From Ignavibacteria bacterium (lineage in GTDB: Bacteria > Bacteroidota > Ignavibacteria > Ch128b), in the NCBI GenBank assembly GCA_013177855.1, contig JABLYA010000008.1, positions 1-47,125 of the forward strand: a stretch of 47,125 bases of DNA, given 5' to 3'. A model generated the notes under the pieces. The model saw only the letters and a list, made by a program, of their open reading frames with translations, was not told the origin of the DNA and did no database searches. Shown one piece after another: positions 4,766-39,300 of the stretch. Both the position numbers and the translations under genes were made by a program. Position 1 is the first letter of the stretch. Each line of letters starts with the position of its first letter.

Positions 4766-6075
4766 TTATTTCCATATAATTCTTCCTTTTATTTTACAAT
4801 TTTGTTTTAACCATTCTATATCTTTTTCGGTTAAATTATTATTATTATAACAATAAAAACCACCTTCAACTATTTCTGGAGCACCTTCCAATGAAGTTAA
4901 TTTATTATTATCACAATAAAAATCACCTTCAACCTTTTCTGGAGCACCTTCCAATGAAGTTAATTTATTATTATCACAATAAAAATCACCTTCAACTATT
5001 TCTGGGGCACCTTCTAATGAAGTTAATTGATTAAAAGAACAATTAAAATTACCTTCAACCTTTTCTGGTGCACCTTCTAATAAAATTAATTGATTATAAG
5101 AACAATCAAAATTGCCTTCAACCATTTCTGGTGCACCTTCTAATGAAGTTAATTGATTATAAGAACAATCAAAATAACCTTCAACTTTTTCTGGGGTACC
5201 TTCTAATGAAGTTAATTGATTAAAAGAACAATTAAAATAACCTTCAACCTTTTCTGGGGCACCTTCTAATGAAGTTAATTGATTATAAGAACAATCAAAA
5301 TCGCCTTCAACTATTTTTGGTGAACCTAATAGTGTGTTTTTTCCCCATTTAATAGAATCATTAAAATATTTTTTATATTCTTTATTATAATTATTTAACA
5401 ACCAATATTTTATATCTTCATTTTCATTTAAAAATGTTTTTAGATCAACTTTTTTATCGAATTTATCCATGAATTGTTTTGATCTTAAATGAAGTTGGTA
5501 TTTTTCTTTTGAATCTGTTTTAGAAATGAATATAAGTAATTCTCTTCCAGGTTTATGATATTTTTTATACCATTTAGAGGTTTTTTCTGTGGCTGTACAC
5601 CATTCAGTTCCTTTACCAAGAATGCATGAATCTTCATATGTTCTAGGAATATATAAATTAAAATTTTTAAACTCCTTTACAAAAATTTTATCTTTTATCT
5701 CACTTCTGCTTAAAATTTCTTCACTTTCTTTAAAAGGTTCTATAGTTTTTGCTAATTCACCCAGAGAATCATATAAATTTATATCTCTTTTATTGAGAGG
5801 TAATTTATTTCTAACAGATTGTCTATTAAATATATCCAAATAGTCTTTTACTTTATAAAGGTCTTCTAATTTTAATTTATTTGATTTATAAAGGTTTAAA
5901 AGCCACTTACAATATTTACCGAAATAAAGATTTCCATCTATCCAAGATGTTGATCTGATGAAATAATTTCTTTAAATATTTTGTAATCAATGTTTTTATA
6001 ATATTTATTATAAATTACATCTATGTTTTCTTTTCGAATGATTTTTTCTAATATGAAATTGTTATAATTTTTCAT
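4766..6075 (-). pseudogene. GKGTEWCTA/LRR protein, broken by one frameshift
   Basis: The start is ATG at 6075 (MKNYNNFILEKIIRKEN), in a frame that runs to TAG at 5938-5940. The homologous continuation lies in another frame: restoring one C near 5957 turns GATCAACATCT into GATCCAACATCT, giving DPTSWIDG and then FGKYCKWLLNLYK. The remainder (to 4766, over 390 codons) has LGKGTEWCTATEK, a motif seen in phage PcfJ-like proteins, a KYQLHLRSKQFMDKFD block, and then about eight 21-residue LTSLEGAPEKVEG repeats with the same C-terminal cap as the gene at 1-480. It is either a recent single-base deletion or a base-calling error. The large downstream part could still be made from an internal start. Confidence 0.75.
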
Positions 6076-6078
6076 ATT

Positions 6079-6129
6079 TTAATTTTTCCATTTATTTTTA
6101 AATAATTCATATATTTGTAAATGTTTCAT
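6079..6129 (-). CDS. Possible 16-residue leader-like peptide ORF
   Basis: The ORF MKHLQIYELFKNKWKN ends 3 bases before the ATG of the frameshifted gene at 6075. It resembles the shared MKyLKxYExF leader but has no cargo. It may be a leftover of a deleted gene or chance; expression is unknown. Confidence 0.25.
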   Translation of the reverse strand: MKHLQIYELFKNKWKN

Positions 6130-6371
6130 ATTTCATCTTTTAATTTTTTTTTCAAATATGTAATACAATCTATCATTCTTCAAAATTTTAAATATTTCAA
6201 ATTTCTTTATGTATTACACATATTTAGTTTTTTTGTTTTATAGTAGTATATATAAAATAAATAAATTACTTTTTAAATTGTATAAAAATAAAATTAAAAT
6301 AGTGTTTAAATAGAAATAATTTACATTTATACAACCGATTCTTATAAAAAAAGTGTTGGTACAAAATAGGT
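6130..6371. other. Non-coding AT-rich intergenic region
   Basis: No convincing ORF on either strand. It separates minus-strand genes from plus-strand remnants and contains TATATAAAATAAATAAATT near 6249-6267, which is a plausible promoter box. No other structure was seen. Confidence 0.4.
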
Positions 6372-6898
6372 ATGACAACGCAAGTTTCAGCAGACGTAAG
6401 AATCAATTAACAAGACAAGACATCAAATCCAGAAAAGTTAATCAAGTTATATGAATTAGACCTTCAAAAAGAAGGACACTTATTTAATCAACAAGTTAAA
6501 AAAATTATAGAACTAAAAAACGACAATATTGATATGCTAAAGAATTACATAGAATTGATAAATGATTACTTGATGCCAAGTACAACTGAAAAGAAAGAGT
6601 TTGCAGAAGTAATGACACCATTTACAATAATTGACGAAATGTTAGATTTATTAGATTAGAACGATTTTAAAAAATCCTGATTTAAAATGGTTCGGACCAA
6701 CGGCTGGTCTCGGAAATTTTCAAGTCAAAATAGTAGAAAGATTGATAAAAGGTCTAAACCAATGGGAACCAGATGAAGAAAAAATATACAAACATATAAT
6801 TGAGAATCAGATTTATTAGATGTTATTAACAATACAAATGTTTGTATAGATAAGGTGCATGAAATATTACCAAAAGTGACAAAAAGATGGAGATAAAA
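6372..6898 (+). pseudogene. Remnant of an N6-adenine DNA methyltransferase
   Basis: From ATG 6372, frame 3 reads MTTQVSADVRIN, an in-frame TAA (6408-6410), then a good coding stretch ending FAEVMTPFTIIDEMLDLLD and TAG. Another frame (from about 6670) continues NPDLKWFGPTAGLGNF and VERLIKGLNQWEPDEEK before a further break. TPxxIxxEMLDLL and the glycine-rich AGLGNF (motif I, SAM binding, with the usual DPA here GPT) are typical of type I/Eco57I-like adenine methyltransferases. The catalytic (N/D)PPY motif is missing, and at least one stop and two frame changes make this a dead, truncated gene. It was probably once an anti-restriction methylase. Confidence 0.75.
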
Positions 6899-6928
6899 CT
6901 TTTTGTTTTCATTCATATATAAATTCTT

Positions 6929-7231
6929 ATGACAATACAACAATATTATAATACTATCAAGAAAAAGATAGAGGTCGGAGACTTTAAACGTCTCACAAGC
7001 AAAGATCCAAAACTAGCACCTTCAAAAGAGGAATGTTCTAAAAATGCTCATTTGGAAGCAATTCACTATCTTATGTATGAATTTATGAAAGATAGAAATG
7101 ATAAAAGAATGTTCTTTGTATTTGACTATGTTTGTCAACCAAAAGGTGTTAATAAAGGTGATATTGATATTGACTTCACTAAATGGAAGATCGAAGACTT
7201 TCTTAAAGAAATAATGAAATTAAAAAATTAA
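6929..7231 (+). CDS. Small phage protein of unknown function
   Basis: 100 residues (MTIQQYYNTIKKKIEVGD...) with a conserved-looking block KNAHLEAIHYLMYEFMKDR followed by MFFVFDYVCQPKG and the C-terminus WKIEDFLKEIMKLKN. No domain recognised. A decayed copy of its last about 18 codons sits at 10521-10578, so this family was duplicated in the region. Codon use looks normal and the frame is intact. The next gene follows after 14 bases. Confidence 0.65.
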   Translation: MTIQQYYNTIKKKIEVGDFKRLTSKDPKLAPSKEECSKNAHLEAIHYLMYEFMKDRNDKRMFFVFDYVCQPKGVNKGDIDIDFTKWKIEDFLKEIMKLKN

Positions 7232-7752: not shown

Positions 7753-9184
7753 AAACAATGTAAATTACAATATTAAAGATAAATCATTTGTTTATAAATT
7801 AGATGAAAGTTTTATAAATAAAAATATAAAATTAATAAAAGACATACATTCTATTAAAATAGATAATATAGACAAATTAGAAAATAAACAATTATTTAGA
7901 GAATTTTGGTCATTCTTTTTAAAAAGAATTGATGAATATTCAGATTTATTTTATACAAGAACAACCTCATGTGAGTATTGGATATCATCAAAATCAATAA
8001 AAATAGTACAATATAATGCAGCGGTTAGTGGTAAATATGCAAAAATAAATTTATGGTTTAATGGAAATAAAAACGATAACAAAAAATTATATGATTATTT
8101 ATTCGAAAATAAAAATGATATTGAAAAATCATTTGGTAATACTCTAACTTGGAGAAGAATGGATGATAAAAATACATGCGAAATAAAATATCAAATAGAT
8201 AATGTTAATATTTATGACAAATCTCAATGGAATAATATACTAGAATTTTTTATTAAATATACAGAAAAATTTAGAAAATCTATTGACCCATTTTTATTTA
8301 AATATTTTAACAAAACACCAGTAGAAACTATAATAGAACAACCAGACACAACCATAATAGTTCCAAAAGAAAAGCAAAACATGAGATTTTTAGATGCTGC
8401 TATAAAAATATTATTAGATAATGGAAATAAACCTATGTCTGCTAATGATATATGGAAAGAGATTTCAAAACAAAAATTGGTTGAAACAAATGGTAAAACA
8501 CCTTGGGCATCATTAAATACTATCATATTATATGGTTGTATTAATTCTCCAATAAATCCAGAACAATTAAAAAAAGAACCAGAAAAAAATAAAAATATTT
8601 TTGATATTGTTGGAAATAAACCATATACTTTTAAATTAAATGATAATTATTTAGATAAAAATCAAACCGAACAACCACAAAGCGAACAACCACAAAGCGA
8701 ACAACCACAAAGCGAACAACCACAACCAGCCACAACCATAATAGTTCCAAAAGAAAGGCAAATTGTATATCAAATGACTAGTGAGGAATTAGAATGGAAA
8801 TGTCTTACGATATATAAAGATGATGATCATTTGAATTATGAATTATCAGAATGTCTAGAATATACCTATGTATTCGATGATAACACTAAATTAAAAATAG
8901 GCAGAACATCACAAGAAAATCCAGTTAGAAGATTAGATACAATGAAAACAGCAAATCCAACAATACATATTGATATAGTATTTCCTTCTTCTCAATATTC
9001 AGAAAAAGAATTACATAAAAGATTTGATGATTCAAGAATGGTTGATAACAGAGAATGGTTTCATAAAACAAAATCACTCTCAAAATTCATTGATGAACAT
9101 AAAAAGAAAAATGAAATAATTTTAGATTTTTATTATAGACAGAAAGAGATAAAAGAAAAAGAAAAGATTATATTGAATTGGTAA
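7721..9184 (+). CDS. C-terminal half: DUF4268-like + HARE-HTH-like + T5orf172 (GIY-YIG-type) nuclease
   Basis: The frame opens at 7721, with the first ATG at 8159. Before that ATG it reads a clear coding stretch (FREFWSFFLKRIDEYSDLF, EKSFGNTLTWRRMDDKN) that resembles DUF4268, a domain of restriction-like proteins. Next comes a HARE-HTH-like module (FLDAAIKILLDNG, MSANDIWKEISK, TPWASLNTIILYG), a SEQPQ-repeat linker, and a T5orf172/MUG113 domain (YTYVFDDNTKLKIGRTS, RRLDTMKTANP, SEKELHKRF, REWF) of the GIY-YIG superfamily. It is a likely DNA-cleaving accessory or defence protein. The family assignments are mine from motifs. Its TAA overlaps the next ATG (TAATG). Confidence 0.7.
   Translation, partial: KKQKIEEILNKNNVNYNIKDKSFVYKLDESFINKNIKLIKDIHSIKIDNIDKLENKQLFREFWSFFLKRIDEYSDLFYTRTTSCEYWISSKSIKIVQYNAAVSGKYAKINLWFNGNKNDNKKLYDYLFENKNDIEKSFGNTLTWRRMDDKNTCEIKYQIDNVNIYDKSQWNNILEFFIKYTEKFRKSIDPFLFKYFNKTPVETIIEQPDTTIIVPKEKQNMRFLDAAIKILLDNGNKPMSANDIWKEISKQKLVETNGKTPWASLNTIILYGCINSPINPEQLKKEPEKNKNIFDIVGNKPYTFKLNDNYLDKNQTEQPQSEQPQSEQPQSEQPQPATTIIVPKERQIVYQMTSEELEWKCLTIYKDDDHLNYELSECLEYTYVFDDNTKLKIGRTSQENPVRRLDTMKTANPTIHIDIVFPSSQYSEKELHKRFDDSRMVDNREWFHKTKSLSKFIDEHKKKNEIILDFYYRQKEIKEKEKIILNW
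8347..8762 (+). repeat. 32-bp direct repeats flanking the HARE-HTH module
   Basis: Copies at 8347-8378 and 8731-8762 differ at one base and both encode TTIIVPKE(K/R)Q. They bracket the HTH module exactly and could allow its gain, loss or exchange by recombination. Confidence 0.8.
8666..8725 (+). repeat. 15-bp tandem repeat (TEQPQ then three SEQPQ)
   Basis: Four 15-bp units encode a Pro/Gln-rich flexible linker between the HTH and T5orf172 domains. Units are almost identical, so copy number can change in frame. Confidence 0.85.
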
Positions 9185-9825: not shown

Positions 9826-9954
9826 TTAATCGTATTCTTTCATTGCTCTCTTATAGTAAAGAAACTTTTCAGGATATTTATAAGCCACAATAGTTCTTGC
9901 AAAATCTAATTTCTTTTCTTCCAAATATTTTTATCAAACAATTCATTTTTTCAT
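9826..9954 (-). pseudogene. Frameshifted remnant of a small minus-strand gene
   Basis: The reverse strand has ATG 9954, then stops. Joining frames gives MKKNELFDK, then YLEEKKLDFARTIVAYK and YPEKFLYYKRAMKEYD with TAA at 9826-9828. This is good coding character in a frame without a start, typical of a decayed ORF of about 42 residues. It is the only minus-strand remnant in a plus-strand cluster. Confidence 0.45.
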
Positions 9955-10049
9955 TTATATAATATGTAAAAGTATGGGAATATTTGATTTGATTTTCGGA
10001 GTTAAATGTGACACAGAATTTTATATATGTAATAATATATTTGGTTAAT

Positions 10050-10343
10050 ATGTTTATAGGCGAATTATTTAAATCAAAAGAAAGTGACAAAATTTATAAA
10101 ATTGTTTATAAACTTGACTCTTATTATCTTTTTGCATTAAATGATGAAGTAAAACAAGATGAAAGATTTACTCAATATATTATTAAAGAAAATGGAGAAA
10201 AAGTAAATTTGGATGATTTAGGTATAAAGGAATATATTATATTTTATGTAGAAGACAATTATGAAAAAATCAAAGAATTAAAAAAATATACTACCTCTAT
10301 TAATAGTAGAGAAAAGAAATTGGAAAGATTGATAAACAAATAA
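10050..10343 (+). CDS. MFIGE-family small protein, intact copy
   Basis: 97 residues: MFIGELFKSKESDKIYK, IVYKLDSYYLFALND, then EKVNLDDLGIKEYIIFYVED and the C-terminus REKKLERLINK. The start at 10050 is chosen because the two broken paralogs at 9184 and 9460 begin at the same MFIGE; the frame is open upstream to a GTG at 10008, but that part is not shared. The KSKESDKIYK block is where the paralogs carry an A8 frameshift. Possibly a small SH3-like fold (GExFxSKxSxxIY); function unknown. Confidence 0.65.
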   Translation: MFIGELFKSKESDKIYKIVYKLDSYYLFALNDEVKQDERFTQYIIKENGEKVNLDDLGIKEYIIFYVEDNYEKIKELKKYTTSINSREKKLERLINK

Positions 10344-10394
10344 ATAAAAACAAATGAAAAACTTCTTTAAAAAGTATTAAACCGTAAAATATAA

Positions 10395-10520
10395 CCTCAT
10401 TCAGTAAAAGTTTATGAAGGTTGTACAAAGTCTTATGGTACTGAATACCATCCTTCTTGTGACTGCGATCATACATTTACTTTATGGTTTGCACAAGAAT
10501 GGTGTACTATTGTAGGATGA
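10395..10520 (+). pseudogene. Cys/Trp-rich coding fragment
   Basis: An open stretch without a start reads VKVYEGCTKSYGTEYHPSCD and DHTFTLWFAQEWCTIVG before TGA. Its Cys-rich, structured composition suggests part of a real protein whose 5' end has been lost. Confidence 0.35.
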
Positions 10521-10578
10521 CTTTTCTAATTGAAATATCGAAGGTTTTCTTAAAGAGATAATGAAATTAAAAGATTAG
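10521..10578 (+). pseudogene. Remnant of the 3' end of a 6929-family gene
   Basis: Nucleotides closely match 7175-7231, the end of the 100-residue gene (sense DFTKWKIEDFLKEIMKLK), but with stops and substitutions. It marks a second, mostly deleted copy. Confidence 0.6.
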
Positions 10579-10580
10579 AT

Positions 10581-10673
10581 ATGAAAACTATAATAGATAA
10601 GATAAAATCGACAATAAATAATGAAAATCAAAAAGATATAAATGATTTTTATGAATTAAAAAATTTATATTAG
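10581..10673 (+). CDS. Possible 30-residue ORF or fragment
   Basis: MKTIIDKIKSTINNENQKD followed by INDFYELKNLY and TAG. Another frame continues ENRTEKEKHFKL, so this may be the start of a longer, frameshifted gene. No homology recognised. Confidence 0.3.
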   Translation: MKTIIDKIKSTINNENQKDINDFYELKNLY

Positions 10674-10707
10674 AAAATAGAACAGAAAAAGAAAAACATT
10701 TTAAACT

Positions 10708-10953
10708 ATGTTAACCTCTCCATTATTTTGGGTGTTTATAGCACCTATAATTATAAATGTTGTAATCATTACAATAAGATTTTTATTAGCAAGGGAAAAA
10801 TTTCCTAAATGGTCAGAAATATCTGATCATTTTCTTTCGATAGCATTATATTTCTTATTGTTTGTAACACCACCATACTCAATATTAACATCAATCGCAA
10901 ATTGTGTTGGTTTGATTAGAGATGTTTCAGGAATGAATGACGAAGAAGATTGA
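10708..10953 (+). CDS. Small two-helix membrane protein
   Basis: 81 residues with hydrophobic segments at about 8-28 (FWVFIAPIIINVVIITIRFL) and 42-66 (FLSIALYFLLFVTPPYSILT), a short basic loop between them and an acidic tail. Inner-membrane location is likely. It could be a small superinfection or lysis-related protein, but nothing specific supports that. The frame is intact in a region of broken genes. Confidence 0.6.
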   Translation: MLTSPLFWVFIAPIIINVVIITIRFLLAREKFPKWSEISDHFLSIALYFLLFVTPPYSILTSIANCVGLIRDVSGMNDEED

Positions 10954-11004
10954 TTTTCAATAACATAAATCTCTATTTTATATAATGATATATACTATAA
11001 TTGT

Positions 11005-11217
11005 ATGATTGAAACCATTGATAGACTAAGTAAAAAATATCCTGATGTTAATATATCAGCGACTATAGCAGCAGATATTTTTATTTATTTGACTTTTAAA
11101 AATGGTAAAGTAATAAGTTTTAGTATAAAAAATAAACCATTTGAAGAACAAATAGAAGAAAAAATATTAGGTTATAAAAGATTAATTCGCATTAAAAAAC
11201 TTGAAAGAATATGTTAG
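11005..11217 (+). CDS. Small protein of unknown function
   Basis: 70 residues (MIETIDRLSKKYPDVNISAT...), predicted mixed alpha/beta, with a basic C-terminus KRLIRIKKLERIC. A TATA-rich stretch (near 10977-10995) lies just upstream. No family recognised. Confidence 0.55.
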   Translation: MIETIDRLSKKYPDVNISATIAADIFIYLTFKNGKVISFSIKNKPFEEQIEEKILGYKRLIRIKKLERIC

Positions 11218-11257
11218 ACAGAATATTAAATGAAAGTGCTTATTTAACAAAATTCAA

Positions 11258-11536
11258 ATGAAAATTATAGAAACAAAAATAATTGATAATTTAGATTCTT
11301 CTGAATAGATTAATATAAATAATCCAATTAGTTATTCTTTGGTTGAGGTTGAAGGTATGAAATACAAACAATACAAAAGAATAATAATTGATGAATATGA
11401 TATATATGGTAATAAAGTATATCATCCAAAATGGAGAGGTTGTATAAATTCAGGAGAATTTGTGGCTATTATTATAAGTGATTATGATATATTGGAACAA
11501 AAATATAAAAAATCATTGAGAAAATTTAAATTATAA
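11258..11536 (+). pseudogene. Small gene interrupted by an in-frame TAG
   Basis: ATG 11258 gives MKIIETKIIDNLDSSE, TAG (11306-11308), then the same frame continues INNPISYSLVEVEGMKYKQY, DEYDIYGNKVYHPKWRG and so on to TAA at 11534-11536. The downstream part (65 codons from a TTG, or from ATG 11357) could be expressed alone. There is no sign of general TAG recoding: the tail tube gene ends at TAG right before a terminator. This is therefore best read as a nonsense mutation. Confidence 0.5.
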
Positions 11537-11671
11537 AGGATTGTCAATCATTCTGTAAAAAAAGAAAACGAGAAAGGATTTGTAAATGAGTAGATATACA
11601 GATTAAGTTTGGAATGTAAGAAGACAATCAATTAATAACTTTCTATAAAAGACTTTGCCAGTTGAAACCAA

Positions 11672-11774
11672 GGTGTAAACCTTTTAATTTTGCAATGTTT
11701 TTCTAATGGAGTGTAAAGAATAGCATTAGAATTTTGCGGTGTAAACCCTTTAATTTTTGTAATGTTTTCCTAAT
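11672..11774. CRISPR. Two-repeat CRISPR-like mini-array (satellite of the 17-18 kb array)
   Basis: Repeat copies at 11672-11707 (36 bp) and 11738-11774 (37 bp, one extra T) flank a 30-bp unique spacer. Both copies begin GGTGTAAACC and end CTAAT, and both carry a few changes from the main-array consensus. There is no associated gene, and the 160 bases on the higher-coordinate side hold no ORF. The rest of the gap 11537-11942 shows only decayed coding (near 11587, broken by TAA). Confidence 0.55.
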
Positions 11775-11942
11775 ATGAGGATGAATTTGACATCATCATA
11801 GATTTATCATAATTTCTTTATATAAGATCTATTATGAATTGCATGCTTATACTATTAATTCTGTTTCCTAATTCAATTATTAATTATAAAAATTCATTAA
11901 TGTTTGTTTTTAACAAGTAATGTTTATACCATTACAATAATT

Positions 11943-12524
11943 TTATTTAATAATTTTATTTAATTTCTTACTTCTTTGTCTTTGAATAAAACCTTTGTCA
12001 GTGAAATTGTATATAAATTCTTCAACCGTTGGTAATTTGTCCAATGGATATGAATCAATCATTTTAACTGCATAATATCCATCTTTATCCATATCATTAT
12101 AAAACCTTTGTGTTTTATTTAATTTGTTTTTCTGAAATCCTTCATACACTTCAAATGTATTCTTTGAAAAGTCTATGATATATGCCCATTCACAAAATAA
12201 TGAATCATAGGCAAAATCACTACTATCTATTAAACCAAGTTTAGTATCCTCTTTAACATTCTCATAAATATAGTTTAATATATCAGCACCATGGTCTCTA
12301 CTTAATTGTGGATATTTATCTAAGGTTGCGTTTTCATCTATATCACCTTCTTTATAAAAGAAACAGTTTTCAATTTTCTTTTGAAACTCTTCTAAATTAT
12401 TTTTTAATAAAAATTTTAAAGCGATAGAACCTTGACCTTCAGGATAACCATCCCATTGACCATATTGTGCAACTTTGGTTTCACCTTCCTTATTGATTAC
12501 TATTGTTAAATTTCTTGTTCCCAT
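11943..12524 (-). CDS. Conserved MGTRNLT-family protein
   Basis: 193 residues with the conserved opening MGTRNLTIVINKEGETKVAQ and then YGQWDGYPEGQG. Proteins with this start recur in phages and bacteria, with no function known to me. Later blocks are SRDHGADILNYIYENV and CEWAYIIDFSKNTFEVYEGF. It is soluble with no signal peptide, full length and intact. It is divergently placed from the recombination nuclease gene, with about 95 bases between them that probably hold both promoters. Confidence 0.75.
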   Translation of the reverse strand: MGTRNLTIVINKEGETKVAQYGQWDGYPEGQGSIALKFLLKNNLEEFQKKIENCFFYKEGDIDENATLDKYPQLSRDHGADILNYIYENVKEDTKLGLIDSSDFAYDSLFCEWAYIIDFSKNTFEVYEGFQKNKLNKTQRFYNDMDKDGYYAVKMIDSYPLDKLPTVEEFIYNFTDKGFIQRQRSKKLNKIIK

Positions 12525-12620: not shown

Positions 12621-15600
12621 TTGATGATAAGTAAAATTGCACACCTTGGTGATTATCACATACATAATCAAAAATGGCATGATAGATATGAATTAGGAAA
12701 TCAATTTATTTACAAAACACTTGAAAAACAATCACCAGACAGAATTGTCATTGTTGGTGACTTGTTTGAAAACTTTATCCAAATTTCGAATGAAGCTAAA
12801 ACATTTGCTGGTAGATTTCTAAACAAACTTTCAGAAATCGCACCTGTTATAATTGTTCCTGGTAATCATGATATTAGGAAAAAAGACCTTAAAAGAAAGA
12901 ATTCTGTTCAAACAGTTATTGAACTTATAAATAATCCAAAAGTTACATATTACGATAAGTCTGGTTTTTATGATGATGATAATGTAGTTTGGGTTAATCA
13001 TTCTCATTTAGAGAAGGATATAAATCCTTGGAATGATATTCCTCATAAAAAATCTAAAAATAAAATATACATTGATCTTTGGCATGATCCTGTAAACGGT
13101 TGTTTTTCTGATAATGGTTTTCAAATGACATCCAAATCATATAGAAACATATCTGATTTTAAAGGTGATTTTGGTTTCTTTGCTGATATTCATAAATTTC
13201 AATATCTTAATGATAAAAAAACAATAGCATATTGTTCTTCAACATTTCAACAAACAATGGGTGAAGATGTTGAAAAACATGGTTTTATCATTTGGGATAT
13301 TGTGAACAAAACATCAGAATTTATTATAGTGCCTGATGAATATAAACTTATAACATTCAGAACAACTGAAAATTATGATTATGATAACATAGATTTTAGT
13401 CATCCTTTAGCTTCAAACAAATCAGAATTTAGAATTATTTGGAGAGATTATTCTGCTAATATAAATAATGAAAATGAAGAAAAATTAAAAAAGTATATTT
13501 CATCTAGATGGAATGATAATATAAAATTTGAAAAAGAGAGAATTTATACAAATTTAAATTCTGTTCAAAAATTAACAGAATCTATAAATATTAATGATAA
13601 GCAAGTTCAACAGGATATATTTAGAGAATATTTGATTGCTAATAAATATAATGATGATTTTATTGAAGAAATATTGAAAATTGATAATATTATTAATGAA
13701 AGATTAGAAATAACAAAAACAATAAATAATGTTGAATGGTCTATTAATAAAATATGGGTTAATAATTTTAAATCATATGATCATTTTGAACTTGATTGGT
13801 CAAATGTAAAAGGTATTATACAGATTGGTGGTGAAAATCAACAAGGCAAAACAACATTATTAGATGCTATAACTTATATAACACATGGTACTACATTAGC
13901 TACTAACAAACTAGGTGGTGCTCAAAGAGAAAAAAATGCAGACAATCGTTATATTAATAATAAAAGAAATTTAGATTTTTGTGAAGGTGGAATGGTAATT
14001 GATATAAATGGTGATCTTTATACATTATTTCGTAGAACTGAAAGAAAATTGTCAAAAGATAAGAAAACAATATCTTCTTGTTCAACAATTTTAGAATATT
14101 ATGAAGGTCCTATTATTAGTGAAGATAAAAAATTAATAGGTGAAAGAAAAATTGAAACACAACAAAAAATAGATTCTATTATTGGTAATTTTGAAGATTT
14201 TGTTAGAATGACTTTAACAAATTCGGAAAATTTAAATTATTTAATATCATTAGATAGAGCAACTTTTATAGATTCTATTATTAGAGATGCTGGTTATGAT
14301 ATTTTTGAAAAAAAATTAGAAGAATTTAAAGAATATAAAAAACAAATAAATATAGAAAGAATTGATATAAATTTAAATGAATCTGAAGAAGAATTAAAAA
14401 ATTTAAAAAATTTATTACAGGATTATAAAAAAGAACATGATGACTTTAAGAAAAAAATTTCAGATATTGATGAAAGAATAAAAGTTGTAAGTTCTGATAG
14501 AGATAATGAAATCAAAAAATTAAACAAGATTGATGACGAAATTGCTAATATTGATATAGAAAGTGCTAAAAATAAAATTGAAGAATACAATAAAGCGATT
14601 GAAAACAATATATCACAACAAAAAATAAATAACGATAAGCAAAAAAATCTTAAAAAAGAGTATGATAAAGATAAATATGAAAGTCTTATTAAAGATATTA
14701 AAAAAATTGAAGATGATATATTAAATTTAAAACTTAAAATTTCTCAAGAAGAAACTAAGATTGAGAAGGAAAAAAGTAATATAGTTAGAATTGATGACAA
14801 AATAAAATCTTTGAAACAGAAAGAAATTGATTCACAAAAAGCAAAACTTATTGTTATTAACAATGATATTGAAAAAATTTCAAATGAATTAAATATCGCT
14901 ATTGAAAGTAAAAAGCGTGATATTAAGGATCAACAAAAAACACAAGATTTTAAAATCAAAACTCTTTCAACAGAAATCAAAAATATAAAGGAGAAAGGTC
15001 TTAGTCTTAAAGAACAAATAAAATTGTTAGAAGAATCAGAAAATTGTCCTACTTGTGGTGCTTTACCAGAACACCAAAAACATAAAACCGATAAGATTGC
15101 TGAATTAAAAAAAGAAATTCAGAATTTATTGGATAAAGGCATGGATGTACAAACAAAACTTAATGATGCAAAAACAAATGCCGAAAAAATTCAAAAGAAA
15201 CTTGATGATTTAGAAGCAGGTATTTATCCAAAAGATATTAAAGATATTGAAAAGAATATAAAAGATAAATTAGAAAAAAAGAAAGCTGAAATAGATCAAA
15301 TCAATAATATTTGTGAAGAAATAAAAAGCAATAATTTTGAAAATGTTCCTGAATTGAAATCAAATATTGAAATGGGTCTTAAAATTAGGACAACATCCGA
15401 AATATCAATTAAAACAAGTGAAGAAACTATTAAATCTTTGAAACAAAATATTAAAGATAAAGAAACGAAAAAGTTTAATGTTCAAGATGAAATATCTAAA
15501 ATTGAAAAAATTAAAGAAGAAGTAAAAACTTATGAAACTTTAGTTCAAGAAAATAAAGAATTGGTATTAAAAATAGAAAATATTAAACTTACTATAGAGA

Positions 15601-16304
15601 ACGCTAAAACAAAAATTGATAAGTATTATGAACAACTTAAATATATTGATGAAAATAAAGTTATAGAAATTGCTATAAATGAATTTGATGAAAAATTATC
15701 AGCATTAAATACAGAGAAAACTGAGTACACAGAAAGATTGGCTGATGTTATGAAAGAAGCAGCAGTAACAAAACAAACTATTCAAGATATTCAGAACAGA
15801 ATTAAAAAGTATCAAGAACAAGTTAAGAGAGATGAGATATTAAAAGAATATATGAAATGTGTACACCGTGATGGTATACCAACTTTCTTATTACAAAAAT
15901 CTAAGGATCTTATCAATATTGAATTAGATGATATGCTTAGTAATGTTGATTTTTCAGTATTTTTTGATGAATTCTTGAATTTAAAGATGTATATGAAAAA
16001 TTCGCCTTGGGCTATACAAAACTTACTAGAAAGTTCTGGTTCTGAACGTTCCTTTGGTGCGGTTGCATTGAAAATGGCGTTACGAACAATAAACAATAAA
16101 TCAAAACCAAATCTTTTAATGTTGGATGAAGTTATGATGAAACTCAAAAATCATATGGTTGATAAGTTTAATGATATGTTGTTGGATATGAAGAAAAAGA
16201 TTGATAAGATTCTTATTATTGAGCACGTTCATACTGTACCTTTTGATGTTTTGATTGAAGTTCAAAAATCAAAAGATGGTATCAGTTCATTAACAATTAA
16301 TTAA
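12621..16304 (+). CDS. Fused Mre11-Rad50 (gp47-gp46) recombination nuclease/ATPase
   Basis: 1227 residues. The N-terminal Mre11-type metallophosphoesterase has GDYH (10-13), GDLFE (46-50), GNHD (81-84), a WVNHSH block and ADIH. The Rad50/SMC part has Walker A GGENQQGKTT (around 405), a long coiled coil with a zinc hook CPTCG (around 809), the signature SSGSERSFGA (around 1138) and Walker B LLMLDE (around 1167). In T4 these are two proteins, gp47 and gp46, which resect DNA ends for recombination-dependent replication; here one chain carries both, nuclease first. The order and motifs are seen in the sequence; the role follows from the family. The frame is intact over 3.7 kb. Confidence 0.95.
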   Translation: MMISKIAHLGDYHIHNQKWHDRYELGNQFIYKTLEKQSPDRIVIVGDLFENFIQISNEAKTFAGRFLNKLSEIAPVIIVPGNHDIRKKDLKRKNSVQTVIELINNPKVTYYDKSGFYDDDNVVWVNHSHLEKDINPWNDIPHKKSKNKIYIDLWHDPVNGCFSDNGFQMTSKSYRNISDFKGDFGFFADIHKFQYLNDKKTIAYCSSTFQQTMGEDVEKHGFIIWDIVNKTSEFIIVPDEYKLITFRTTENYDYDNIDFSHPLASNKSEFRIIWRDYSANINNENEEKLKKYISSRWNDNIKFEKERIYTNLNSVQKLTESININDKQVQQDIFREYLIANKYNDDFIEEILKIDNIINERLEITKTINNVEWSINKIWVNNFKSYDHFELDWSNVKGIIQIGGENQQGKTTLLDAITYITHGTTLATNKLGGAQREKNADNRYINNKRNLDFCEGGMVIDINGDLYTLFRRTERKLSKDKKTISSCSTILEYYEGPIISEDKKLIGERKIETQQKIDSIIGNFEDFVRMTLTNSENLNYLISLDRATFIDSIIRDAGYDIFEKKLEEFKEYKKQINIERIDINLNESEEELKNLKNLLQDYKKEHDDFKKKISDIDERIKVVSSDRDNEIKKLNKIDDEIANIDIESAKNKIEEYNKAIENNISQQKINNDKQKNLKKEYDKDKYESLIKDIKKIEDDILNLKLKISQEETKIEKEKSNIVRIDDKIKSLKQKEIDSQKAKLIVINNDIEKISNELNIAIESKKRDIKDQQKTQDFKIKTLSTEIKNIKEKGLSLKEQIKLLEESENCPTCGALPEHQKHKTDKIAELKKEIQNLLDKGMDVQTKLNDAKTNAEKIQKKLDDLEAGIYPKDIKDIEKNIKDKLEKKKAEIDQINNICEEIKSNNFENVPELKSNIEMGLKIRTTSEISIKTSEETIKSLKQNIKDKETKKFNVQDEISKIEKIKEEVKTYETLVQENKELVLKIENIKLTIENAKTKIDKYYEQLKYIDENKVIEIAINEFDEKLSALNTEKTEYTERLADVMKEAAVTKQTIQDIQNRIKKYQEQVKRDEILKEYMKCVHRDGIPTFLLQKSKDLINIELDDMLSNVDFSVFFDEFLNLKMYMKNSPWAIQNLLESSGSERSFGAVALKMALRTINNKSKPNLLMLDEVMMKLKNHMVDKFNDMLLDMKKKIDKILIIEHVHTVPFDVLIEVQKSKDGISSLTIN

Positions 16305-17233: not shown

Positions 17234-20385
<3,152 letters not shown>

Positions 20386-20666: not shown

Positions 20667-20769
20667 TTAAATTATTATTTATACAAAGATAAAGTGATTT
20701 TTATAATAAAAAAAAATGATAAACTTTATTACTATTTTCATATAAAATTACAAAACGAATCGCATATGA

Positions 20770-21951
20770 ATGTGTAGAGATGAAAAAGATTATTTATGGC
20801 AATTTCTTCCAAGAGATTTTGTATATCTCACTGAACAAAAAACCCAAATTTACAAGAATTATACCCTAAAAAACGATTACCTTATAAATATAATGCATGA
20901 ACTCATATTAAAGTTCTTTTTTAATAATGAGTTAAATCATAATTTATGGTCTACTATATTAAGAAAGAAATATGGTAAGACCTATAACATTTATATAGAT
21001 TATTTATTAGAAAAAGGTTTTATGAATCTTATATCTAATTATTATGTAGGTAAAAAAGCAAAAACATATAAATTAAACATTACAATATTAGATGTAATTA
21101 AACATAAAGTAACAGATAAAGTTTTATTAAAAAAACATAGTAAAGATTATCTTTTGAGAACATTTACATCAGAACAAGAGAGTCCAATTAACTTATCTCT
21201 TAGAAAAAAACTCATAGATGATTTATATCATGTTGAAATTGATTATGAAGCCGCATATAAATGGTTGAATGAAAGAAAAAATGATAAAACGTTAGAATTA
21301 GAAAAATATTTTAGAAATGTTGGTGCAATAGATGGTATAAACAGTGGTTATATATTTTTTAAATTTGATTCTTATGGTAGATTACATACAAACTTTACTG
21401 TTTTAAAAAAACACATAAGAAAAAATTTTCTAACAATAGATGGGCAAGAAATCGAAGAAATTGATATTAAAAACTCACAACCTTTCTTTTTTGCAGTTGC
21501 TATTAAAAATGAACATGGTGAAGACACTTTTGATGACGAAATGCGCAGATATGTTGATTCTGTAAAAAATGGATTAATATATGATGAAATATTACAAAAA
21601 TTTCCAGATAAAATAAAAACAAGAGATCAAGCTAAAGTTATGATGTATAAAGTATTATTTGGTAATAATGTTGATAGATCCAATGAAGAAACAAGACTTT
21701 TCAAAAAATTATATCCAGGTATATGTGAATATATTAAAGATTTCAAATATTTTTCCAACTCATATAAAGAATTGAGTCATAAATTACAATTATTAGAAAG
21801 TGAATTTATCTTTAACAAGGTTGTTACAGAAATAAAACAAAAGTTTCCACAAATTAAATTATTCACTGTTCATGATTCTATCTGTTTTCCAGTTAAATAC
21901 AAAGAAGAAGTAAATATAATCTTCCGAAAACATCTTGATAGTTTACTATAA
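20770..21951 (+). CDS. Minimal A-family (Pol I / T7 RNAP-type) polymerase
   Basis: 393 residues, far shorter than DNA Pol I. The N-terminal region (30-105) looks like a winged helix (LRKKYGKTYNIYIDYLLEKG, KKAKTYKL). The palm/fingers motifs are in order: GRLHTNFT (203-210), motif A EIDIKNSQPF with D232, O-helix/motif B RDQAKVMMYKVLFG with R285, K289, Y293, F297 and G298 at the family's 0/4/8/12/13 spacing, and motif C TVHDS with H368 and D369. The usual motif A steric-gate Glu is not in place, and HDS resembles T7 RNA polymerase, so the nucleotide choice is unclear. No exonuclease domain. It might be a primase-like, gap-filling or transcription enzyme. Confidence 0.75.
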   Translation: MCRDEKDYLWQFLPRDFVYLTEQKTQIYKNYTLKNDYLINIMHELILKFFFNNELNHNLWSTILRKKYGKTYNIYIDYLLEKGFMNLISNYYVGKKAKTYKLNITILDVIKHKVTDKVLLKKHSKDYLLRTFTSEQESPINLSLRKKLIDDLYHVEIDYEAAYKWLNERKNDKTLELEKYFRNVGAIDGINSGYIFFKFDSYGRLHTNFTVLKKHIRKNFLTIDGQEIEEIDIKNSQPFFFAVAIKNEHGEDTFDDEMRRYVDSVKNGLIYDEILQKFPDKIKTRDQAKVMMYKVLFGNNVDRSNEETRLFKKLYPGICEYIKDFKYFSNSYKELSHKLQLLESEFIFNKVVTEIKQKFPQIKLFTVHDSICFPVKYKEEVNIIFRKHLDSLL

Positions 21952-22057: not shown

Positions 22058-25000
22058 ATGCCAATTCAAGAAAAAGATTTAGGAAGATACAAAAGACCAG
22101 GTATTTTTATAAACGAGATCGATAACTCAATTATAGAATTACCAGTACAAAATGTGCTAATTAATTTAGTACCAGGTTTTTCTAAAAAAGGACCTGTAAA
22201 TAGACCAATCTATATTACAAATCCAAATGATTTTATTACTATTTTCGGTGATATTGATAGGGGTTTAGAAAGAAAAGGTTCATTCTTCCACAGAACATGT
22301 TTGAAAATGTTGCAAAGTGGTCCAATTTGGGCACTTAATTTATTAAGTACAAATGATACAAGAGATAAATTAAATTGGAAATCAATATCTTGTGCTTCAT
22401 CATATAATAATGCTGCAACAAAACAAATGCCTTATTCAAGAATTTTTAACAGACAAGATTTTTGGATAAGAGATGATGAATCATTTTTAGATTATATAAA
22501 TGATCCAACACCTGACAATAACAGACTTTTACATATTACAAACTTAGGTGAAAAAACTATAACAGTTTTCTTATATAAGTCTAGTATTACAGGTTTTGAT
22601 GTGACAGCAGAAGATTGGTATGGTGGTGTAACAAAAGTTCCACAATACATTCATCCAAAAGATTGGATTTCTGATTATATGGTTTCAGTATTAGTTGTTA
22701 TGGGTGATTGGACAGATTATGACAATCTTTCAGTTGATGCAACTTGGGGACAATATTTTACATCAGAAGGTTTAGACAAAACTAAAGTACAAGATTTTGT
22801 TAATGAAACAAATGTAACAGTCGCTGCTTACTATGATTGTTCATTAATTCCTTATTTCAAAGATATTGACGGTAGAGATATGTATATCAAAACTATTATC
22901 AATAACAACACAGATAAAACTGGTCTTTTCTGTGCTTACAATGAAAGCATATTATTAGATTCTGATTATCCAACTGGTAAAATAGATATTATTGGTGATG
23001 GTATTGTAGGATTAGAAAATACATCAATAGATTTCTTATCTTATAAAGAATCTATTGTTGAATCATTGGCTTATGCTCAAACATCACTAGATGCACATAA
23101 TAATGTATTTGGTAATCACAGTACTGTGTTATCAAATCCTTTTGCTCTAAAGAACAGTAGAACTGGTTCAAAAACAAACTGGTATGTTAATGATGTAACA
23201 ATCGGTGACACAGGTTCAACTTTGATTAACATAACAATAGCGGCTTATTCATCAGGTAAGAGTTGGTTATGTACAGATTATGCTTCATCAGTTGATTTTG
23301 ATACACCTCCAGTAAATATTTATCATAAAGCATTCGTTGCTGGTGATGCTGTATATCTTAACAAAGATTATGCAGGTTTAGAAGCATATAAAATTTATTA
23401 CATTGAAGACGCTTCAACAAACGATGGTTGGTATTCATTATCAGAAACAAGAGGCGGTTCTCCAATAGTATTCTGTACAAATAATAGTTGTACAGTACCT
23501 TCAGGATTATATATCCAAAGAGCAACTATTGAAATTGATACAAGTATTAACTCATATTTCAATCTCGGCGGTGCTCAATACACTCTTAATACTGGTTTGA
23601 CTGAATATCAATTTGAACCTTTAACAATCAACACAATTTCAGCAGGTATCGAAAGATATGATGTTTTATACCTTACTGAAGGAAGTGATGAAGTTCATAT
23701 TTTGAAAGGTGTTCAATCTAATAATGGCACTGCAGAATTACCTGATTTTACAATAGATTACAACGATGCTATCATTTTAGGTTATGTTCATTTGCATATT
23801 ATATCAGGTGCAACACCAGGCACAGGTCAAACAGATTTTGCAATCCTTTGCGATTATACACCTGTAACAATTGATAGTACTGGTTATTTACCATTAACAG
23901 ATATTACACTTAGCGGTTATACAGTAAATAATGTAAATTATGCTATTCTAACATTCGGCAATACTCTTGGTGTAGCAAGTCTTAAAAATTATATTCAATT
24001 AAGATATAGAGCCGCTTATAATGAAATGGAATCTTATCTTGATGATGGTAAAGGTGTTATTATTAATAATCTTACAGGATATAAATATCCTATCATTGGA
24101 GCAACATTTACAGATTACTCAACAACTTATAATGCAAGCATTACAATTAATACAGGAACATATCCTTATACTCAATTTTATAACACAAATCCTTATAAAT
24201 GGTTAATTTATTACCTTGATAATGAATTTATGATTGGCACAACATCAACTTCAAGAGTTTGGAGTTCATTAGCACCAATTGAAGATTTAAGTTTGAGTGG
24301 ACATGGTGTAATCGGTAAATATTCAGATATATACCTTGATATTTACAATGGCATAATCAATAACTGGGATTATGGTTATGAATATAACGATACCGGTTCA
24401 ACAACAAAGATTTACTTAAAATCTTGGATTCAAGGTGTTGATACAATGTATATTGATTTTATGGCAGAAGATAGAGTTTCACCACAACCTATTACTAACT
24501 GGGTTTCAAACTACGGTGAACAACTTGTTATCTGGTCAAATGAATCAAGTTACAAACAAACAGTTGAAATTGAATCATTAGATGAATCTAAATTACCTAA
24601 TTTGGTTTATGAAATCAAAGTAGATAAAAACAGATATTCAGAAATCGTAAAAGGTGATTTTTTAGAAGCATATTATGATGAAAGTTTATACGAAGCAGGT
24701 GGTGAATTATATGGTGCTGATCCTCGAAAATTAACAAGAGTTATTAGTGTAACTATTGATTCAAATAACACTGATTTGAAAATTATTAAAACGGATGCTC
24801 CTATTAAGATTGAACAAATCGATAAAGTAGGAGGTGGTTATGATTATCAAACAACAGTATATCCTCAAATTGATGAGTATGTTGATACATACAAAGGTAT
24901 AAAACTTATTCCTTTCACAATTCATCCTGATTCAATTCCAAATGGAACTGAAGAAAGACAATCATCAATACTTGATGTTATAGCTAAAACAACAAATCTT

Positions 25001-25930
25001 GCTAAAGGTCTTGCAAATAAGAATAGGATTTCTTGGAGATATTTGATTGATTCGTTTGGTTTAGGTTTGACAGCAAATTCAAAACAACAATTAGTTGATC
25101 TTTGTGGAATGAAATTAAACTGTTTTGGTTTCATTAATGCACCAAGTGTTAGAACATTTAAAAACAGTTCAAATCCATCATTTGTTAATGATGATAGAAC
25201 TTTGAATACTGCTTATTTAAGATCAGGTGGTGATGAAACAAAGAATCCTTCATTTCTATATTCATTTGCTTCTGGTGTTGGACGTTCTTGTGTTGGTTAC
25301 TTCTTCCCATATGTAAAAATTGATGATCAAGGTATTCAAAAAGATGTTCCACCAGCAGCTTGGGTAGCAACAACTTATATGAATAAATTCATATCAACAT
25401 CAAGTTTAGTTGAACCTTGGACAATTTGCGCTGGTGTTTCTCACGGTAGAGTAATAGACATAGCAGGCGTTGAAATGGATTTTACAAATGAAGATTTAGA
25501 AAACTTATATCAAATGAATCTTAATCCAATTGTTAAAGTTCTTAATAATGGATACTGCATCAACTCAGAATCAACAGCACAAGTATTTCCATATAGTTCA
25601 TTAAGTTTAATCCATTCAAGAGAAGTTTTAATTGAACTTGAAAATGCACTATATGATATGTTGTTAAGATACCAATGGAGATTTAATACTCCTGAAATCA
25701 GAAATGAAATTAAATATAGGGCTGATAAAATCTGTAAAGATATGCAAGACAGAGACGCTTTATATAACTTTAAAAACGTAATTGATGGAACAAATAATAC
25801 AAACTATATCATTGATTTACAAATGGGTGTTCTTGATACATATGTTGAAATTATTAAAGGTATGGGTATTATTACAAATAATATCACAATCCTGAAGAAA
25901 GGTGATATTGAATCTGGTGGATTTGCATAA
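22058..25930 (+). CDS. Contractile tail sheath protein (gp18-like), extra large
   Basis: 1290 residues, about twice T4 gp18. The N-terminus is typical: an EKDLGRYKRPGIFINEID block, then VLINLVPGFSKKGPVNRPIY and FITIFGDIDRGLERKGSF. The C-terminal part from about 985 is the conserved sheath core (NRISWRYLIDSFGLGL, CVGYFFPYVKIDD, PPAAWVATTYMNKF, EPWTICAGVSHGRV, RYQWRFNTPEIRNEI). The middle 300-900 region is a variable, Thr/Gly/Tyr-rich insertion likely exposed on the tail surface. It forms the contracting outer cylinder around the tube encoded next door. The frame is fully intact. Confidence 0.92.
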   Translation: MPIQEKDLGRYKRPGIFINEIDNSIIELPVQNVLINLVPGFSKKGPVNRPIYITNPNDFITIFGDIDRGLERKGSFFHRTCLKMLQSGPIWALNLLSTNDTRDKLNWKSISCASSYNNAATKQMPYSRIFNRQDFWIRDDESFLDYINDPTPDNNRLLHITNLGEKTITVFLYKSSITGFDVTAEDWYGGVTKVPQYIHPKDWISDYMVSVLVVMGDWTDYDNLSVDATWGQYFTSEGLDKTKVQDFVNETNVTVAAYYDCSLIPYFKDIDGRDMYIKTIINNNTDKTGLFCAYNESILLDSDYPTGKIDIIGDGIVGLENTSIDFLSYKESIVESLAYAQTSLDAHNNVFGNHSTVLSNPFALKNSRTGSKTNWYVNDVTIGDTGSTLINITIAAYSSGKSWLCTDYASSVDFDTPPVNIYHKAFVAGDAVYLNKDYAGLEAYKIYYIEDASTNDGWYSLSETRGGSPIVFCTNNSCTVPSGLYIQRATIEIDTSINSYFNLGGAQYTLNTGLTEYQFEPLTINTISAGIERYDVLYLTEGSDEVHILKGVQSNNGTAELPDFTIDYNDAIILGYVHLHIISGATPGTGQTDFAILCDYTPVTIDSTGYLPLTDITLSGYTVNNVNYAILTFGNTLGVASLKNYIQLRYRAAYNEMESYLDDGKGVIINNLTGYKYPIIGATFTDYSTTYNASITINTGTYPYTQFYNTNPYKWLIYYLDNEFMIGTTSTSRVWSSLAPIEDLSLSGHGVIGKYSDIYLDIYNGIINNWDYGYEYNDTGSTTKIYLKSWIQGVDTMYIDFMAEDRVSPQPITNWVSNYGEQLVIWSNESSYKQTVEIESLDESKLPNLVYEIKVDKNRYSEIVKGDFLEAYYDESLYEAGGELYGADPRKLTRVISVTIDSNNTDLKIIKTDAPIKIEQIDKVGGGYDYQTTVYPQIDEYVDTYKGIKLIPFTIHPDSIPNGTEERQSSILDVIAKTTNLAKGLANKNRISWRYLIDSFGLGLTANSKQQLVDLCGMKLNCFGFINAPSVRTFKNSSNPSFVNDDRTLNTAYLRSGGDETKNPSFLYSFASGVGRSCVGYFFPYVKIDDQGIQKDVPPAAWVATTYMNKFISTSSLVEPWTICAGVSHGRVIDIAGVEMDFTNEDLENLYQMNLNPIVKVLNNGYCINSESTAQVFPYSSLSLIHSREVLIELENALYDMLLRYQWRFNTPEIRNEIKYRADKICKDMQDRDALYNFKNVIDGTNNTNYIIDLQMGVLDTYVEIIKGMGIITNNITILKKGDIESGGFA

Positions 25931-36378: not shown

Positions 36379-39300
36379 TTATCTATCTTTTTTTCTTAAT
36401 GGTAAATTTATAGTTTCACTATTATTTTTATTTGCTTCATCCCAAGGAGCAATATCATAATATTTTTTCTTCTTTTTTAATAAAGTATAATTTGTTTCGT
36501 AATTAACTTTTTGCTTAGCTGATAAATCAAAATCTGATGGTTTTATAAAAGCCGTATCACCTGTTGTTGTTTCATCTGTATTTAATAAATTCCAACCAAA
36601 CCAATTACCTGAAATCCATTTACCACCATGCCAACCACCTTCGAATCTATAACCATAAAACTCACCATTATACCATTGATCTTTGAAATCACTTATATTT
36701 GCGCTTACATTCCTTGAATAAATCTGTATTCCTGCTTTTTTATTAAAGTTTTGTGTACTTGTTTGCACCCTACTATTCCAATTTTTGAAATTTTCTTTGT
36801 CATTTTCTGTCAATATATTATTGTAGATATTACTGTAACCAGATGAAGAATTTTTCATATCATAAAATAAATATCTCATAAATACATCGTCTATATCAAA
36901 ACTTGAATAATTTGATAGGTTATTTTTCATGTATGAATGATAAACACTAAATAAAGCAGCATCTTGAAAATTATGATAATTACTATAATCTACGTCTCCA
37001 TAATACCAAACTAAATCATTAGGTAAATTATTAGCAATATTTGATTTCATATAAGACCATATCCTATTCTGACTATCATTGCTTTCTACTTGGTATACAC
37101 CAAATTTTGTCATACCAGAATAAGAATCTATATGATAGTTTGGATACAATGATTTAAATTCATTATCAGACATTTTCTCTAAAAAATTAACTTCCTTTAT
37201 TATAGGTCTCATATTTGTATTATAATTTGATAAAATTTCAATTTGAATTTTATCAGTCGTGAGTATTTCAACCGAACTAGTTTTTGTTCTTATAAAAGTT
37301 ATTTTTTCTAATAAATGTGTATTATTCCAATAATCTTCCGTAATAGATTTCTCTTGTTCATAATTTCTACCATTATTTGACCAACCACTTGAATATCCAA
37401 TAGGCGTTGAAGTTTGATATATTTTTGTTGGTTCTCCTATTAATGTTTCTTGTGTAAGATCCTTATAAATTAATTTATTAAGTGTTGAATCATATACATT
37501 CGATACTGGTGTTGTTTTTGGAATATCATTGATATTAACAATTCTTTGTGCACTTATTGGTGATGATTCATTAATTGTTGAACCTGAATACTTTATTATT
37601 GTTGAAATTAAATAATCTCTGTAAGGATTAATAGATAATTTTTCAAATGAATTAGGGAATGTTACTGTTGATTTAGTCATTGAGAATGGTGATATTGAAT
37701 TCCAATTTTGAACATTATATGAAATTTGAGGATTGAATGAAGGTGTTGCAACAGTATAAGGTGATGTCAATGTAAAACCTGTAGATAAATTGAATACATT
37801 ATAAGATTTCATATTCGTACCTAACCAAATATCTGTAGCATTTATATATACACCAGCAGGAGAAACATCAAAAATATATGCTTTATTTATAAAATCATAA
37901 TCTAAAATAGTAGTATTTATAGTTTTTATTACACCATCTTCATTCTTATACATAATATTAACAATCTTTCCAGCACAAGATGGTGTAGGTTCTATACCAA
38001 CATGAACATAACCTGTTGGACCAGTTGGTAAAGTAAATGCGGGCACATTATTAAAATTAGGATCTATTATTTCTACATAGAAATTTCCACCTGTAATACC
38101 AGAATTACCAACTCTCCAAGTACCTTTAATTTTATTATTTATTGATGTATCCGAATAATAACTTAATGATATCCAATTTGTCGAATTTTCATCATATTTC
38201 CAAGCCGATTTAATATTTGTTGGATTTAAATATGAAGATAAACTTGAATTTCCAGTTATACCACCAAAAAAACAAGGAAGTAATTGAGCGTTTTGAAAAG
38301 TATCACCAGTAGCAAAACTCCAAGGCATAACATTTTTGAATATTAATCTGTAATAAGCACCAGGTTTTGTTACCTCACAATAATATACGTTTCTATGTTG
38401 ATAATAAACTTGAGAAGTAGCTAAACTAGGTATATTAACATAAAATCCAGGATCAGGATAATAAGTATGGAATATAGGTTGCATTCTTATACCCAATTTA
38501 TTAGTTTGATTTTTATAATTTAAAGATATAAAAGTATTTGCTGTTTCACTATATTCTGGATTTAATGTTATACCTGTATTAGTATTATTATATGGTGCCA
38601 TATGAAAGAATGTTTCAGAATTACATTGTGAAATCATATTACTATAAACACCATTTTTACCTACATAGTAATAATATGGTACTATTAATCCTTGATTCAT
38701 TATATATGCGTTAGCCGAACTATTAGTAGTATCTGATACACCAAAACCAGTAATCCATAATATATTACTTCTATTTGTTAAATAATTATATCCTGATATT
38801 GCTGTAATAGTATATTCTCCATCATCTAGTGTTGTATCAGCTACAGGCAGACTTGATGATAAAGCGAATGCTGCAAAAGAAGTTGTAACACCACCAGATA
38901 ATACTGTTGTATTTTCTAAGTATACACCAGATAATACTGTTGTATTTTCTAAGTATATTTTATCTCCTATTGAAAAATAATCACTTAAATTAAAATTGTT
39001 ATCAAAATATACAGCGTGACCAATAACTTGACACTTGAATACTTGTGAATTATAAATTAAATTATTTAATTTACAATTTAATTGTGTTCTAAAATCTTTC
39101 ACAATATTAAATTTAGGATCTACTAATACTTGATCATTATATATTTGTCTAAAACTTACACCAGATGATGAGAAATTATAACCTGAATGATTTTTATGTT
39201 GATATATGTAATGAAATAACCATTCTGTAAATCTTCTTCTCATGTAAGGTGTTTGATAATTTGTTGTAGATAATTCATCAACATCATATACACTTCTATT

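Follow-up and report, generated by a model that had tools for sequence, protein, structure and literature searches.

The window analysed is a 47,125-base contig of a 3.66-Mb assembly. On its forward strand, positions 20770-21951 hold an open reading frame with an ATG start and a stop codon inside these coordinates, whose product is a protein of 393 residues. The ORF itself, the conservation of its family and an AlphaFold2 model point to a minimal A-type polymerase-like gene devoid of an exonuclease domain. It is preceded by an A+T-rich divergent intergenic region of 103 bp (20667-20769), which contains no more sigma-70-like promoter matches than its shuffles do; a promoter and terminator scan at the gene found no terminator. 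The gene adjoins a ClpB/ClpA-like AAA+ ATPase gene on the reverse strand (18376-20385, 669 aa).

Phage genes are present in the window: a tail sheath at 22058-25930 and a gp32-like single-stranded DNA-binding protein at 43340-44305. An ORF of 1251-1311 aa is kept in the downstream tail-sheath position in several close relatives. At 12621-16304, a 1227-aa ORF fuses a calcineurin-like metallophosphatase domain to an AAA_23/SMC-like domain, and as such resembles SbcD and SbcC (T4 gp47 and gp46) joined in one protein. Although binned in a bacterial assembly, the contig resembles part of a huge phage genome that has recombination genes of the T4 type. The window also encodes a protein matching HARE-HTH, MUG113 and DUF4268 (8159-9184) and, on the reverse strand, an ORF of 2059 aa (36379-42558). 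Another contig of the same assembly (86.8 kb) carries a second DNA_pol_A gene (618 aa), possibly within another mobile element.

Motifs A, B and C were located in the 393-aa protein by conservation and by alignment with Pol I, E. coli numbering being assigned through the motif positions. Motif A (residues 229-242; 21454-21495, forward strand as for all features below) reads E-I-D232-I-K-N-S-Q237-P; it contains the catalytic D232 and, aligned to the DYSQIE of Pol I, has Q237 at the Glu710 gate position. Motif B, the counterpart of the O-helix (residues 285-298; 21622-21663), is the stretch RDQAKVMMYKVLFG, with the pattern R285-x3-K289-x3-Y293-x3-F297-G298 aligned to R754, K758, F762, Y766 and G767. 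Motif C (residues 364-373; 21859-21888) reads T-V-H368-D369-S370 followed by I (TVHDSI), with the catalytic D369 and a Ser at the position of Glu883. Three other segments, identified by conservation and profile alignment, have Pol I counterparts: residues 200-221 (21367-21432; D-x-Y-G-R204-x-H-T-N ... I-R217) correspond to TxxGR with its R668, residues 311-318 (21700-21723; FxxLYPxI) to the YFxxYPxV segment, and in residues 339-344 (21784-21801; LQxxES) Q340 aligns with Q849 next to an invariant E343. The first-pass annotation had called motifs A, B and C intact, and D232, K289 and D369 are indeed invariant in 93/93 family members; the R-4-K-4-Y-4-FG spacing that it gave also holds, the "4" being the step between residues (x3 gaps), and the usual motif A Glu that it had found missing is replaced by Gln237, which profile alignment places at the Glu710 position.

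Taken alone, the 393-aa protein has no match in Pfam, NCBIfam or PDB sequences, a single match at chance level in PHROGs, and no relative in a single-sequence scan of viral contigs. Relatives were found by a family alignment search, performed after these single-sequence searches had given nothing useful: viral contigs yielded 168, with 80 retained, and contigs of bacterial genomes 37, most of them from Bacteroidota and the others from Ignavibacteria/Kapabacteria, Planctomycetota and Verrucomicrobiota. The scan patterns were the conserved motifs, so these numbers count relatives that possess them. By tblastn, six records of uncultured phages, 595-735 kb long, contain relatives with 26-49% identity; two of the six are equally long (735,411 bases). 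One plasmid, from Hymenobacter qilianensis, also carries a homologue. None of the family members tested matches PF00476, the Pfam DNA_pol_A model. The family is unnamed, has no match in Pfam or NCBIfam and no confident one in PHROGs, and the literature that we searched on huge-phage family A polymerases, on mobile elements and on ICP1 gp100 does not describe it.

Among 93 non-redundant members nine residues are invariant (R204, D232, S236, Q237, G268, Y271, K289, E343 and D369). As this invariance spans homologues down to about 20% identity (86-93 non-redundant sequences), the conservation of the motifs is far beyond chance. Other positions are nearly fixed: F311 and P316 are each found in 92/93 members and Q340 in 88/93, while position 297 is Phe in 82 and Tyr in 11, and position 370 of motif C is Ser in 89 and Ala in 4. 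In a tree, 58 of the 59 phage or viral rows fall in one group; the homologue of a 595-kb phage is placed among the chromosomal rows. The Tenacibaculum homologue is longer (686 aa; 4965-7025 of its locus), and its C-terminal end matches GIY-YIG and NUMOD1, as if a homing endonuclease were fused to, or inserted in, the polymerase gene.

The AlphaFold2 model, built on an 86-sequence alignment, has a pLDDT of 92.7 and a pTM of 0.86. With VIA-align, residues from about 120 to 393 superimpose on family A DNA polymerases with Z of 11-13 over about 240-260 residues, and the best 50 PDB matches are all family A DNA polymerases; Pol theta, T7 DNA polymerase and Klenow are tied at Z of about 13 each. That T7-type RNA polymerases do not appear among these best 50 carries no weight as evidence of absence. 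Foldseek ranks apicoplast PolA first (E 8e-5), mitochondrial RNA polymerases coming lower, and in a viral structure library the top matches are a protein of an uncultured phage labelled "Putative DNA polymerase I", at 42% identity, and phage proteins of about 430 aa that are uncharacterised. The first-pass annotation had proposed a minimal A-family polymerase and held that a predicted structure without a right-hand fold would speak against it. In the model a palm-fingers-thumb core of the A type is present according to AlphaFold2, Foldseek and VIA-align alike, and this predicted fold, together with the register of the motifs, supports the proposal. The helical region of residues 117-192 (21118-21345), delimited by DSSP of the model, is thumb-like by position, from which its putative name derives.

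The structural alignment with A polymerases begins only around residue 120. The absence of an exonuclease, already remarked on from the sequence, is borne out, residues 1-115 being predicted as something else. Folded separately with AlphaFold2, residues 1-120 reach a pLDDT of 86 and show a secondary structure consistent with H-E-H-H-E-E. Nearly all the best PDB matches of this domain are winged-helix proteins (Orc1/Cdc6, MCM8, plasmid Rep, RepA), several of them from replication initiators; Foldseek gives it no match under E 0.2. Secondary structure and PDB matches thus suggest that residues 35-102 or so (20872-21075) form a winged helix in place of the exonuclease, an assignment that stays at probable, short of proven, because the structural matches reach only Z of about 6. 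This probable domain and the membership of a large family go beyond what had been noted before.

Profile alignment connects the family to phrog_4756 (probability 98%, E 1.8e-14), which on sequence grounds is its sister family. Proteins of phrog_4756 occur in cultured phages, among them GP100 of Vibrio phage ICP1 (QVV98636.1), a protein of Vibrio phage 277E43-1 (CAH9012421.1) and gp034 of Rheinheimera Barbavirus. The 393-aa protein itself does not match the phrog_4756 profile, three related members doing so at 1e-6 to 9e-3, and a single-sequence scan of viral contigs for the sister family returned nothing. The two families share the core and the motif order GR-[YFHW], D-x-x-x-x-[HQ]-P, R..K, LQ..[DE]S, HDS. 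They differ in the gate, in the N-terminal part and in the hosts of the carrier phages, which are Gammaproteobacteria for phrog_4756: the gate residue is Gln in 93/93 members of the family, but His in 8/9 and Trp in 1/9 members of the sister.

With full-length Pol I and single-subunit RNA polymerase (ssRNAP) alignments, hhalign matched motif C only; trimming to the core and inclusion of the sister family were then used. Over 189 columns the combined profile can be aligned with Pol I of Bacteroidota (P 1.6e-4), all motifs being in register: R204-R668, D232-D705, Q237-E710, R285-R754, K289-K758, Y293-F762, F297-Y766, Q340-Q849, D369-D882 and S370-E883. Reversed-profile controls gave P of 0.25 or higher. 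The P values are modest and single-pair, and the Pol I set is narrow, comprising the window's own phylum and one phage enzyme.

What these substitutions imply for the choice of nucleotide can be considered from known enzymes. Glu710 of Pol I blocks ribonucleotides (PMC9324360), and the gate of ssRNAPs is Gly in 11 of the 12 examined, the twelfth being unmatched by the pattern. A bulky Gln237 would favour dNTPs, and the family probably uses them. Use of rNTPs is possible because the family lacks counterparts of Glu710 and Glu883 and, in most members, has Phe at the Tyr766 position. The HDS form of motif C is no mark of an RNA polymerase, because Ser also stands at the Glu883 position in the DNA polymerase of phage Tt72, an enzyme active with dTTP (PMC9324360). 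The earlier description of a mixture of Pol I and T7 RNA polymerase features is therefore fair as regards the motifs, but HDS does not count as evidence for the latter.

Each of the 17 huge-phage records checked holds one intact copy of the gene. Among 11 phage records tested, 10 also encode a B-family polymerase (DNA_pol_B), the lone exception being a 595-kb phage with a Pol III alpha and a DNA_pol_A gene, and 7 have a Toprim_2 match (4 clear, 3 weak or borderline). This combination of DNA_pol_B, Toprim_2 and a single-copy gene argues for an auxiliary role. In LR756511, the 595-kb phage, the homologue shares 4 bp with the gene of another small A-type polymerase, which is 428 aa long and matches PF00476 (locus 9833-12279). 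In five bacterial loci an integrase lies just upstream on the same strand, at 23-335 bp, which links the family to mobile elements; these integrases were identified by Pfam, and phmmer seeded with one of them found no others.

We favour, with a probability of roughly 60%, a divergent, stand-alone, exonuclease-less A-type (Pol I-like) DNA polymerase with an auxiliary role. That the protein is a working A-type polymerase seems very probable from the predicted fold and the invariant residues. It would consist of a palm-fingers core, a small helical thumb-like region and, replacing the exonuclease, the probable N-terminal winged helix. D232 and D369 would hold two metals, K289 and R285 would bind the triphosphate, and R204 and Q340 may contact the primer-template, dNTPs being polymerised with Gln237 as a bulky gate. 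More weakly, the enzyme would serve a phage or mobile element separately from the B-family replicase. The winged helix may bring it to particular DNA sites for short-patch synthesis, either replication start at the element's own origin or gap filling; such a role alongside the replicase, whether linked to an origin or in filling gaps, is put forward tentatively. Against this explanation count the lack of a Pfam DNA_pol_A match, the missing counterparts of Glu710 and Glu883, a winged helix predicted at Z of about 6, and the immediate neighbours in the window (ClpB-like gene and tail sheath), which give no hint of replication. Of the roles suggested by the first-pass annotation (primase, repair polymerase, small phage RNA polymerase), an auxiliary or repair DNA polymerase comes out as the likeliest and a small RNA polymerase as the least likely.

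An initiator-primase is an unlikely alternative, in which the winged helix would bind an origin or another site and the A-type core would start chains de novo, using NTPs or both kinds of nucleotide, to supply primers to the phage or host replicase. The weak structural matches of the probable winged helix to replication-initiator domains, the integrase-adjacent copies in mobile elements, the absence of exonuclease and gate Glu, and the Phe at the Tyr766 position are consistent with it. However, the Toprim_2 matches in the phage records, the bulky gate, and the separate replication initiation protein annotated on the Hymenobacter plasmid argue against it, and the literature searched yielded no dedicated de novo primase on a Pol I core. 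In a broader form, which we also consider doubtful, the family would be a third A-type branch beside Pol I and T7-type RNA polymerase, a winged-helix-guided primase-polymerase or initiator with a Gln/His gate on a Pol I scaffold, beginning synthesis at chosen sites and spread by huge phages and integrative elements.

It is improbable that the protein is a small single-subunit RNA polymerase, analogous to N4 RNAPII, with promoters chosen by the winged helix. Its size is near that of N4 gp16 (404 aa), it has the HDS motif C and a DxxGR-x-[HY] motif, and the sister family alone aligns with T7-type RNAP (P 1e-4, 54 columns). But HDS is present in an active DNA polymerase too, the gate Gly is replaced by Gln or His, and against the long alignment to Pol I the combined profile matches T7-type RNAP at motif C only (P 7e-4, 57 columns). 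Moreover, the alignment of N4 RNAP2 with T7 RNAP has P 3e-26, that with the family only P 2.6e-3. None of the 11 phage records has a PF04998 polymerase, a point in favour of this reading; the search for PF00940 was empty as well, but so were 14 control genomes, which makes it uninformative. As for a translesion or end-joining polymerase (Pol theta/nu-like) protecting phage or mobile-element DNA, it is very improbable: Pol theta is among the nearest structures, the exonuclease is absent and the gene is a single-copy accessory to a B-family replicase, but T7 DNA polymerase and Klenow tie with Pol theta in Z, repair genes are not fixed beside the gene and the family shows no testable lesion-bypass signature.

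Annotations, Pfam models and the literature searched assign no function to this family, which is single-copy in each huge-phage record checked, up to a 735-kb genome, and is present in Bacteroidota and PVC genomes. With a gate residue that neither Pol I nor T7 RNA polymerase has, the family is relevant to the way in which A-type enzymes select dNTPs or NTPs, and since its distant relative GP100 sits in the cultured phage ICP1, its function can be tested now. A primase-polymerase on a Pol I scaffold, if the family proved to be one, would represent a novel way of initiating DNA synthesis.

By its defining features the protein is neither a textbook Pol I nor a T7-type RNA polymerase. With family A DNA polymerases (E. 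coli Pol I/Klenow, T7 DNA polymerase, Pol theta, apicoplast PolA) it shares the predicted right-hand core and, in register, the catalytic Asp pair, the Lys/Arg of motif B, the YP segment and the Gln849 counterpart. It departs from textbook Pol I because the gate Glu, HDE, the 3'-5' exonuclease domain and the PF00476 match are all absent; in the family Gln replaces Glu710, Ser replaces Glu883 and Phe mostly replaces Tyr766, and a probable winged helix lies at the N-terminus. With T7 RNAP and N4 RNAPII it has in common the HDS motif C, a DxxGR-type motif and the R..K spacing of motif B, but profile similarity is confined to motif C, Gln stands at the gate Gly (T7 G542) and PF00940 does not match. 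The type-A DNA polymerase of Thermus phage Tt72 (PMC9324360) is likewise a divergent phage enzyme of family A with Ser at the Glu883 position, but it differs from the 393-aa protein in possessing a 3'-5' exonuclease and in retaining the gate Glu (E389).
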